Assembly: GCA_030616165.1 (NCBI GenBank)
Contig: JAUWXV010000098.1
Coordinates: 1-12,416, forward strand
Direction of reading: 5' to 3'
From: a bacterium
Lineage (GTDB): Bacteria; SM23-31; JAUVVT01
DNA: 12,416 nt
A program made the translations under genes and the position numbers. How positions within the stretch are numbered: the first letter of the stretch is position 1; each line of letters opens with the position of its first letter. Positions 4,995 to 9,694 of this stretch are shown here, one piece after another. The notes beneath the pieces were generated by a model. It had not been told where the DNA came from. It ran no database searches and saw only the letters and a list, made by a program, of their open reading frames with translations.

Positions 4995-6041
4995 TTAACT
5001 TTTTCCGAGAAGATAAATATATGCGTCTTCGAGACTTGGTTTTACTCTTTTTGATTCAATTTTTCCCCCATCTTCTGAAATAAACTTTATCCTGATGCGT
5101 CCATCAACCCTAATATGTTGAGTAATATTTAACCTATTTTTAAGGTTTTCAAACTCATCATCTGGAACTTCAGCAGTCCAAACCTTCCCTTCAGCGAATT
5201 CGAGCATCTTCTCTGGAGAACCTTTATATAACACCTTCCCATTATTCAAAACAGCCATATTGTTGCAGGAACCTGAAATATCTTCTACAATATGAGTTGA
5301 AAATATGACTATCCTATCCTGACTTAACTCTCCCAAAAAGTTTCTAAATCTAATTCTTTCAGCAGGGTCAAGACCAGCAGTAGGCTCATCTACCACCACA
5401 ATCTTTGGCAGATGAAGAAGTGTCCGAGCTATACCCATCCTCTGTTTCATTCCTCCAGAATAATTCTTCAACTTCTCATCTTTTCGCTGATATAGATTTA
5501 CCCTTTTTAAAACATCGTTGACTTTTTCAATTCTCTCCTTAATATTTATTATTCCATACAGCATTGCATGATAATATAGATATTCGTAAGCAGTCATATT
5601 CTCATAAAGACCAAATTCTTGGGGAAGGTAACCAATAATAGATTGAAAATCTTCTGTGTGCTGGCTGACTTTTAAGTCATTAATAAAGATGCACCCTCTC
5701 GTTTCTTCAAGAATACCGCACAGCAGTCTCATTAGTGTAGTCTTTCCAGCACCATTAGGACCCAAAAGCCCAAACATACCAGTACCTATATCAAGTGAAA
5801 CAGAATCGAGCGCCAGTACCTGTTCTTTCTTTCTCCCTATTATCGGTATCTTATAAATCGCAGTGTATATCTTCTTCTTTAAACCTGCCAATCTCCCCAT
5901 TATATCTTTCAAAATTATCTCTTTTCTCTTAATCTTACCCGATATAACAAGCATATACTCGATAAGAAACCATATAATTCCCCAGAAGATTGCACCTCCG
6001 AGATTATCCCAGATAAGTCTTAAATATACAAATAATCCCAA
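4995..6041 (-). CDS. ABC transporter ATP-binding protein with N-terminal membrane helices
   Basis: This frame encodes an ABC nucleotide-binding domain of the [15 protein letters not shown] type. Walker A is GPNGAGKT (94-101), the Q-loop QEFGLY (141-146), the signature YSGGMKQR (194-201), Walker B [12 protein letters not shown] (215-226) and the H-switch STH (248-250); all catalytic parts are present. A C-terminal accessory region (about 285-348) follows. The N-terminus is odd: two hydrophobic helices (about 2-10 and 15-33), then a basic linker, then ALDSVSLDI, without a clear first NBD strand. The start shown is a TTG at 6041, chosen only because it is the first start codon in the open frame. 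It has no usable Shine-Dalgarno, and the frame stays open to 6119. It overlaps the RND gene by 22 bp. ATG at 5954 is another possible start. I think this is likely the 3' part of a frameshifted RND-ABC gene. It pairs with the permease at 4248-4976. Confidence 0.8.
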   Translation of the reverse strand: [348 protein letters not shown]

Positions 6042-6119
6042 AGGAATAATGGTAAGAAAAATCCCCCTTGTGATTTGTTCGATGTATTTGAGATTTTTTG
6101 AACTAACTCCTTTATCATT
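6020..6119 (-). other. Frame-transition region joining RND and ABC reading frames
   Basis: Both frames are open here: the RND frame until its TAA at 6020-6022, and the ABC frame from just after its TAA at 6120-6122. In the RND frame the tail reads KISNTSNKSQGG then an aromatic end, unlike a natural domain. The ABC frame reads NLKYIEQITRGIFLTIIPL and continues smoothly into [11 protein letters not shown], a plausible membrane helix. A run of six A on the minus strand (T at 6094-6099) is the best place for a switch. One extra A there would give KELVQK followed by NLKYIEQ. The switch needed is -1 (or +2). Confidence 0.55.
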
Positions 6120-9100: not shown

Positions 9101-9694
9101 AATTCCGTACGACCGACACTTATCCTCATCAATCTCTATTTCAACGGAACGGTCTCTCCCTCCTCCTATATAAACAGCAACGACTCCATCAATCTGTTCA
9201 AGTTTTGGTTTTATTTTTCTTTCGGCAAATTCTCTTAAATATTCTACATCATCACTCCCTCTCAGATTTAACTCCATCAGAAAGTTCGAAATGTTTTCAG
9301 TGTCCTGCCTGTTAACCCTAACAGAACTTCTCTGGGGAAGACTTTTTTCTGTAGATGAAATCTTCTGCTGAATTTTCAGGAATGCAAGTTTCATATCGGT
9401 TCCGTAATGATACGCAACCCTGACGATTCCGCGATTCTGGTAAGAAGTCGAATTTATTTCCTCGATATCATCAAGAGTGCCAATCTGTTCTTCCAGAGGA
9501 ATAACAAGTTCACGCTCTATCGCTTCCGGCGAATAGCCATTCATGTATACATTAACATAAATATTAGGGAAAACCATTCTTGGAAGAATTTGTATCGGAA
9601 GCTGATACCACGAAATCACACCAAGAATCCCGAATCCCAAAAACAACATTATCGTGGTTATAGGTCTTCTTATTGCTATTGTAGAAATCTTCAT
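6020..9694 (-). CDS. RND (AcrB/SwrC-like) efflux permease with ABC-like C-terminal extension
   Basis: RND pumps are proton-driven trimeric inner-membrane exporters. From the ATG at 9694 the protein is 1224 residues. TM1 is MKISTIAIRRPITTIMLF and on. Then come the first porter/docking half (about 30-335), TM2-TM6 with the TM4 proton-relay segment GLLVDNGIVVLENI (396-409), TM7 (523-545), the second porter half (546-860), and TM8-TM12, including VVNNGIILIDYI (932-943). VDN/VNN in place of AcrB's DD/K is usual in the SwrC-like branch. A Gly/Glu-rich linker (648-665) sits in the second porter domain. The canonical protein ends near 1022; about 200 residues remain. They form two helices (1035-1053, 1061-1083), a cytoplasmic piece with VFIKISNLTKIYDDD (1097-1111) that resembles the first strand of an ABC domain, and two more helices (1144-1164, 1167-1188). 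The start at 9694 fits the family N-terminus; an in-frame ATG at 9733 adds 13 residues. Neither has a Shine-Dalgarno. No adaptor protein gene is adjacent. Confidence 0.9.
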   Translation of the reverse strand: MKISTIAIRRPITTIMLFLGFGILGVISWYQLPIQILPRMVFPNIYVNVYMNGYSPEAIERELVIPLEEQIGTLDDIEEINSTSYQNRGIVRVAYHYGTDMKLAFLKIQQKISSTEKSLPQRSSVRVNRQDTENISNFLMELNLRGSDDVEYLREFAERKIKPKLEQIDGVVAVYIGGGRDRSVEIEIDEDKCRSYGIPVSLIKQKIESSNIRRQFLGSVTEKNQRFFITLDGRFTDIQEIENLIIDDKSPIFLKDLANIEKGFRERTSYFRVNGKQSIGLWVLKDDLSNLISLSNSVLKVVDELNRTYEKDDIYLKVAFNQAEWMQNAIDKVKKLALVGILLAILVLLFFLKNIRVVSILILAIPISLLITFYIILQAGLSLNILSLMGLALAIGLLVDNGIVVLENIFRHHEKGKDSFTAADIGSSEVSRAVVAATFTTVIVFMPFLFVQSEIKIIGKELSLSVIFPLLVSLFVALTLVPMLTSRVLKNIKLESVSGFKISSYKNRVLEVYTLLLKLCLRYPVRVIGLVLTFFFFTLIATTPFILKSEEGELPDSFDIYVEMPKGSSLDAADAVVRQVEYIVNEIEDKEEVRSRIQEENSTITIKLLKKNERKTKLSVGDIKQKLRRNISRVSGGIVRFEKPVSRVGGGRSEGEGGEGLFGLGSEPEKIIIRGYELNRLESLTNEVQYRLEAIEEIREVRSNFRKGEPELHIIGDYEALSTWNMTMMDIMNVVNAAQREGVQTIFGFKEYDHEIPIELKLKDIEEKTIKELKDMSITTSDMRYIPIKSVADFQVLEGPGGINRKNQEREVEISYRFNRPVTKSKPRLTELRRQVDNTIREMHLPAGFAIEIIHEEEKDKSIYWIFGASGILIYLILASIFESFSAPFVILGTIPLATIGSFWALAITGTPLFTGMFPMGLLGMLILLGIVVNNGIILIDYISILRSRGYSKQRAIITAGQARIRPILMTSFTTILGVFPLAFKTGGMGEIWPPFAISVIGGLSVAALFTLIFIPTVYMSFDNIEKWFRFIGWKGILFNICAILYLGVYSYYHIDSLFWKVMAWMVILIGIPGVTWIFYKVLDIIKKKPIIIDKDVFIKISNLTKIYDDDSRFVKEWGKNKRREKAIIESGGTIYSRRKILDNFIWQIPFCVFLIYFTFFFLGSIFWRTIFAVGMLFFTRFMVFQILSLFKMIKELVQKISNTSNKSQGGFFLPLFLWDYLYI
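8408..8437. repeat. Perfect 30-bp spacerless palindrome inside the RND gene
   Basis: Each half is TTCACTGCTGCCGAT, followed directly by its reverse complement. It encodes residues 420-429 (FTAADIGSSE) between TM4 and TM5 of the RND permease, at the position where relatives carry an AA-x-x-G-x-x-EV segment. It is GC-richer than its surroundings. No protein-level need for such symmetry is evident; chance codon choice on a conserved motif is possible. Confidence 0.9.

Follow-up and report, generated by a model that had tools for sequence, protein, structure and literature searches.

Frame-broken gene for a conserved RND-ABC composite permease whose ABC ATPase domain is interrupted by four membrane helices

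Export of PDIM in mycobacteria requires both the RND protein MmpL7 and the type V ABC exporter DrrABC, and MmpL7 has been proposed to serve as a scaffold (PMC11539658). The locus analyzed here resembles this pair in that an RND protein and a putative type V exporter with a DrrA-like NBD come together, both of which are needed for one export path in the mycobacterial case. However, MmpL7 and DrrABC are separate proteins with an MMPL-type RND, no TolC duct and no insert in the NBD, whereas our locus specifies a composite in which an HAE-type RND permease and the NBD form one chain. By analogy, we infer that this composite could be the covalent counterpart of MmpL7 plus DrrABC. Other described exporters share single aspects. 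MdtABC-TolC likewise places two different RND permeases side by side with an adaptor and a TolC-like channel, but it has no ABC part, and MdtB and MdtC retain their usual C-terminus. MacAB-TolC is comparable as an ATP-driven tripartite exporter that uses a TolC duct, but MacB belongs to another class of ABC permeases, in which NBD and permease domain are fused to each other, and there is no RND part. The exporters GldA/GldFG and DrrAB, which work with an ABC-2 type permease, provide the closest sequence profiles for the fused NBD, and drrA is among its best NBD matches. Nevertheless, their NBDs have a short beta-1/beta-2 turn and are not fused to an RND, and the NBD of the composite scores below the curated cut-offs for GldA (TIGR03522; 178.6 versus 402.6 bits) and DrrA (TIGR01188; 171.9 versus 312.45 bits). 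In the Wzm-Wzt O-antigen exporter, WztN carries an insertion after strand beta-1 of the NBD at residues about 10-34 (PMC11539658). It is located at the same place as the insert of the composite, but it comprises a helix of about 25 residues compared with 160-200 residues and four TM helices. A described RND-ABC fusion or operon was not found in the open-licence literature, an absence that is weak evidence.

The window, i.e., the whole analyzed stretch of 12,416 nucleotides, corresponds to the entire contig C190 of a 343-contig assembly (about 3.7 Mb) in which the composite is present in a single copy. The gene is located on the minus strand and distributed over two overlapping frames. The RND frame (9733-6020; 1,237 aa) is open from position 9733, while the family N-terminus of the composite corresponds to the methionine at 9694; the ABC frame is open from 6119 to 4995 and contains a complete ABC ATPase core. 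The earlier note had regarded both frames as parts of one composite, and our comparison bears this out. A family profile that was made from relatives, with the window sequence left out, is covered from position 1 to 348 by the RND frame and from 353 to 718 by the ABC frame, so that the two matches (E-values 1e-121 and 1e-160) adjoin without overlap. Judged from sequence, this contiguous coverage is far beyond chance. The joined product, if continuous, would comprise about 1,566 aa.

The search for continuous homologues that the earlier note had proposed was successful. About 30 relatives from Bacteroidota, the phylum of the window's genome and scattered other lineages encode the same composite, mostly with a length of 1,556-1,633 aa, and all of them are unbroken at the position where the frames change in the window. 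In genomes of the same class, the composite is present as open frames of 1,576-1,599 aa and in further copies that are cut by contig ends. Its distribution is patchy: it was found in five of the six genomes of the own phylum (window included), in 6/395 sampled Bacteroidota genomes (reference genome included) and, outside the phylum, in four of about 380 genomes. Scanning of 84,980 species genomes revealed 13 composites in named MAGs, which are labelled Bacteroidales, Prolixibacteraceae, Saprospiraceae, Odoribacter, Bacteroides and Chlorobiota. The earlier note had named relatives with a separate ABC ATPase gene and no extra helices as the finding that would speak against a fusion; none was detected, and every relative found is continuous and contains the helices. 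Moreover, the fused NBDs form one clade in the tree (support 100/99), which makes a single origin of the fusion the simplest reading. Since the relatives encode the same composite and are all unbroken at this position, the composite is real, and its architecture is not an artefact of the window's assembly. The window almost certainly contains the gene of a conserved RND-ABC composite permease in frame-broken form, and the permease represents one subunit of a seven-gene system. Its layout is a 12-TM RND permease followed by two TM helices, strand beta-1 of the NBD with the A-loop tyrosine, four TM helices and the rest of a canonical ABC ATPase.

The RND permease part (RND2; 6629-9694, minus strand) matches the whole ACR_tran domain (PF00873; E 3.3e-191 in Pfam) with its residues 17-1035 at profile positions 2-1020, and it shares 34-49% identity with the corresponding part of the relatives. 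The scores for the NCBIfam family RND_permease_2 (NF033617), i.e., 552 bits for the window and 483 bits for the relative L027, are both below the curated cut-off of 1250 bits. At the other end of the protein, the region 4995-5830 (minus strand) encodes the remainder of the ABC ATPase, a C-terminal extension and the stop codon. ABC_tran (PF00005) matches the ABC frame with an E-value of 1.4e-28 in Pfam, and all NBD motifs of the window are intact (GPNGAGKT at 5739-5762, [26 protein letters not shown], STHI). The window and every homologue that could be followed to its end contain Walker A, Q-loop, signature, Walker B with its glutamate and H-loop.

The region between these two parts harbors the extra helices. 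As had been noticed before, the RND frame contains four additional hydrophobic helices and the ABC frame another two. Those of the RND frame are arranged with two on each side of the beta-1 motif, and the total agrees with the 18-TM profile of the family. The first pair follows the canonical 12 helices of the RND (6440-6625, minus strand) and is supported by the hydropathy of the family, by helices 1040-1058 and 1065-1083 of L082 and by helices H34-54 and H58-87 of the L027 model. The next element is strand beta-1 with the A-loop tyrosine (IKISNLTKIY; 6371-6400, minus strand), which is displaced upstream of the insert and was assigned based on its invariant K-I-Y, the gap and structure alignments. 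The remaining two pairs, delimited by family profile and hydropathy, are located at 6139-6270 in the RND frame and at 5940-6075 in the ABC frame (both minus strand). The earlier note had described the order RND, helix bundle and ABC correctly, but the bundle is not simply placed between the two domains, because four of its helices reside inside the ABC domain.

In ordinary NBDs, a strand ending in the A-loop aromatic residue is located just before the Walker A subdomain. The fused NBDs lack this placement. Their A-loop tyrosine is separated from Walker A by 184-230 residues including the four TM helices, compared with 23 residues in a standalone paralogue of the same genome ([42 protein letters not shown]). 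The motif itself, [I/V]x[I/V]xNLxKIY, is well conserved, and its K-I-Y is invariant in 13 sequences. Structural evidence comes from an AF2 model of L027, in which alignments to solved NBDs start at beta-1, with model residues 95-98 paired to the first residues of the NBD in the solved chains, and resume past the insert with Z up to 25.2; the model is shallow (15 alignment rows, mean pLDDT 70.8, pTM 0.43), and its pLDDT around beta-1 is about 45-67. An HMM alignment to ABCA1 also puts the beta-1 segment just before the NBD, with a score of the segment itself that is not significant. The helix counts, 12+2 before and four after beta-1, place the strand and the rest of the NBD both in the cytosol. 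The ABC domain of the composite is thus interrupted by four membrane helices after strand beta-1, and because these helices sit between beta-1 and the remainder of the domain, the extra helices are more than a linker. Their interpretation as the second half of an ABC-2 TMD is not supported, as a comparison with the ABC-2 permease by hhalign revealed no similarity in sequence (probability 0.2). We know of no other NBD that is interrupted by a membrane bundle at its A-loop strand.

The composite belongs to a conserved seven-gene export system. The order around intact members is a standalone NBD, a permease of about 1,100 aa, a TolC-like channel, an HlyD-type adaptor, the permease RND1, the composite and a 6-TM permease of putative ABC-2 type. 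The latter (4248-4976, minus strand) is a probable partner subunit according to synteny, co-occurrence and an AF2 model. Its orthologue directly follows the composite in all loci covering that region except L076, and both genes were found in the same six of about 390 sampled genomes; the match to ABC2_membrane_2 is under the cut-off of that profile, and the top Foldseek matches of the model are PmtCD, NosY, Wzm and ABCG, all with E>0.05. RND1 (about 1,030 aa) is encoded directly upstream of the composite in relatives. Its C-terminal part is located at 11155-12414 (minus strand) of the window and its N-terminal part on contig C228 (L083:2-1882), the start of which harbors the upstream half of the operon. 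The end of the window contig (12376-12416) overlaps with the start of C228 over 39 nt with three mismatches, which suggests a strain mixture in the assembly. A polysaccharide deacetylase gene (PF01522; 9807-11132) between RND1 and the composite is absent from related operons. The large permease (1,130 aa in the window's genome; L083:5003-8392) is conserved upstream of the TolC-like gene and contains seven hydrophobic segments, a degenerate M1-peptidase-like region and a golvesin C-terminal domain; an HEXXH motif was absent from the M1-peptidase-like region of all 11 members. The adaptor matches RND_mfp with 181 bits (cut-off 94.9), and the channel matches OEP with an E-value of 3.8e-55, so that the operon includes both accessory components of a tripartite RND efflux system. 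The same operon encodes a standalone GldA/DrrA-like NBD of about 300 aa (L083:8848-9747). It is 44% identical to the fused NBD and might pair with it as a heterodimer.

These components are consistent with a model that we propose tentatively and rate slightly below even odds, namely, an ABC-2 exporter that is tethered to a heteromeric RND pump and loads its cargo into the TolC duct. RND1 and RND2 would constitute an MdtBC-like heteromeric pump on the TolC/adaptor duct. The fused NBDs and the ABC-2 permease, perhaps together with the six extra helices and possibly with the standalone NBD, would form a type V (ABC-2) exporter held against this pump. At the expense of ATP, the ABC part would take its cargo, either hydrophobic or a peptide, from the inner membrane or cytoplasm and pass it on to the RND porter domain for expulsion through the TolC-like duct. 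The 4-TM insert, which is located at the turn between beta-1 and beta-2, may link the movement of membrane helices to the ATP site. A dually energized machine, in which a single polypeptide is common to a proton-driven RND heteromer and an ATP-driven ABC-2 exporter, and in which helix movements of the membrane-threaded ATPase open and close the adenine pocket, is conceivable but rather doubtful. For the best explanation as a whole, i.e., identity, frame break and mechanism taken together, we estimate a probability of about 0.65.

The ABC domain could alternatively energize or gate the RND trimer directly, so that ATP replaces or tops up the PMF and the ABC-2 permease is reduced to an accessory anchor. 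The covalent attachment of an NBD with complete catalytic motifs fits this scenario, and so does the proton relay known from AcrB: the positions of D408 and K940 are occupied by asparagine in both RND1 and RND2, and among 24 fused RNDs D407 is kept while D408 and K940 are replaced by asparagine (D408 by threonine in two). However, the TM4 aspartate (D407), the TM11 Arg-Pro motif and the threonine are retained in all RNDs compared, which is also true of many RND pumps lacking an ABC part, and the 6-TM permease, which is nearly always present, would be unnecessary. With the TM4 aspartate kept, the replacements at D408 and K940 do not imply a loss of proton coupling. We accordingly regard direct energization as unlikely and favor the tethered exporter.

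The frame break itself can be localized from the family matches. The match of the RND frame stops at residue 1209 (DNA about 6107) and that of the ABC frame starts at its residue 8 (about 6098). This crossover at 6107-6098 brackets the A6 run 6099-6094 (minus strand), at which the earlier note had joined the frames and which represents the break. The subsequent out-of-frame tail of the RND frame (6020-6093, minus strand; stop at 6020-6022) is without family match, in line with its former description as unlike a folded domain. None of the about 30 relatives is broken at the A-run position, and a conserved programmed frameshift or recoding site was therefore rejected. The break is probably a private single-position event at the A-run, either an assembly or strain artefact or a recent mutation or lesion, and the copy in the window may not be functional. 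Wherever contig ends do not cut them, the other RND genes of this genome are unbroken open frames.

Programmed -1 frameshifting or transcriptional slippage at the A6 run, which would yield RND2 plus a minority of full composite and thereby set the NBD:RND ratio, is improbable. The A6 run and an AAGGAG located 7 nt upstream would suit such a mechanism, but the break is private to the window sequence and thus lends no support to a functional -1 frameshift; furthermore, the heptamer T CAA AAA does not correspond to the canonical X XXY YYZ site, and the termination product would end within the NBD insert. The composite of L033, a Chlorobiota-labelled MAG, is frame-broken at a different place near its N-terminus (L033:2718-3185), showing that a gene of this length does suffer occasional breaks. 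Still a little less probable is a gene fission that has turned RND2 and the NBD into separate proteins, with the ABC part translated from the TTG at 6041, the first in-frame start of its frame. The intact downstream motifs would allow for this, but strand beta-1, the A-loop tyrosine and half of the insert would be missing from the resulting ABC protein, the RND protein would terminate with the unmatched tail, and no ribosome-binding site is apparent at the usual distance from the TTG, as already recognized in the earlier note. A chance overlap of two unrelated genes, finally, is ruled out by the profile coverage and the composite relatives.

With an NBD that is threaded through the membrane, the composite represents a new arrangement of known parts. 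Textbooks treat PMF-driven and ATP-driven export as alternatives, and a conserved single chain that contains both kinds would offer a direct test case for two energy sources in one trans-envelope duct. It would also provide a tractable covalent model for the loose link between MmpL7 and DrrABC, and the interruption of the NBD at its A-loop strand bears on the tolerance of the ABC fold and on a possible gating of ATP binding.
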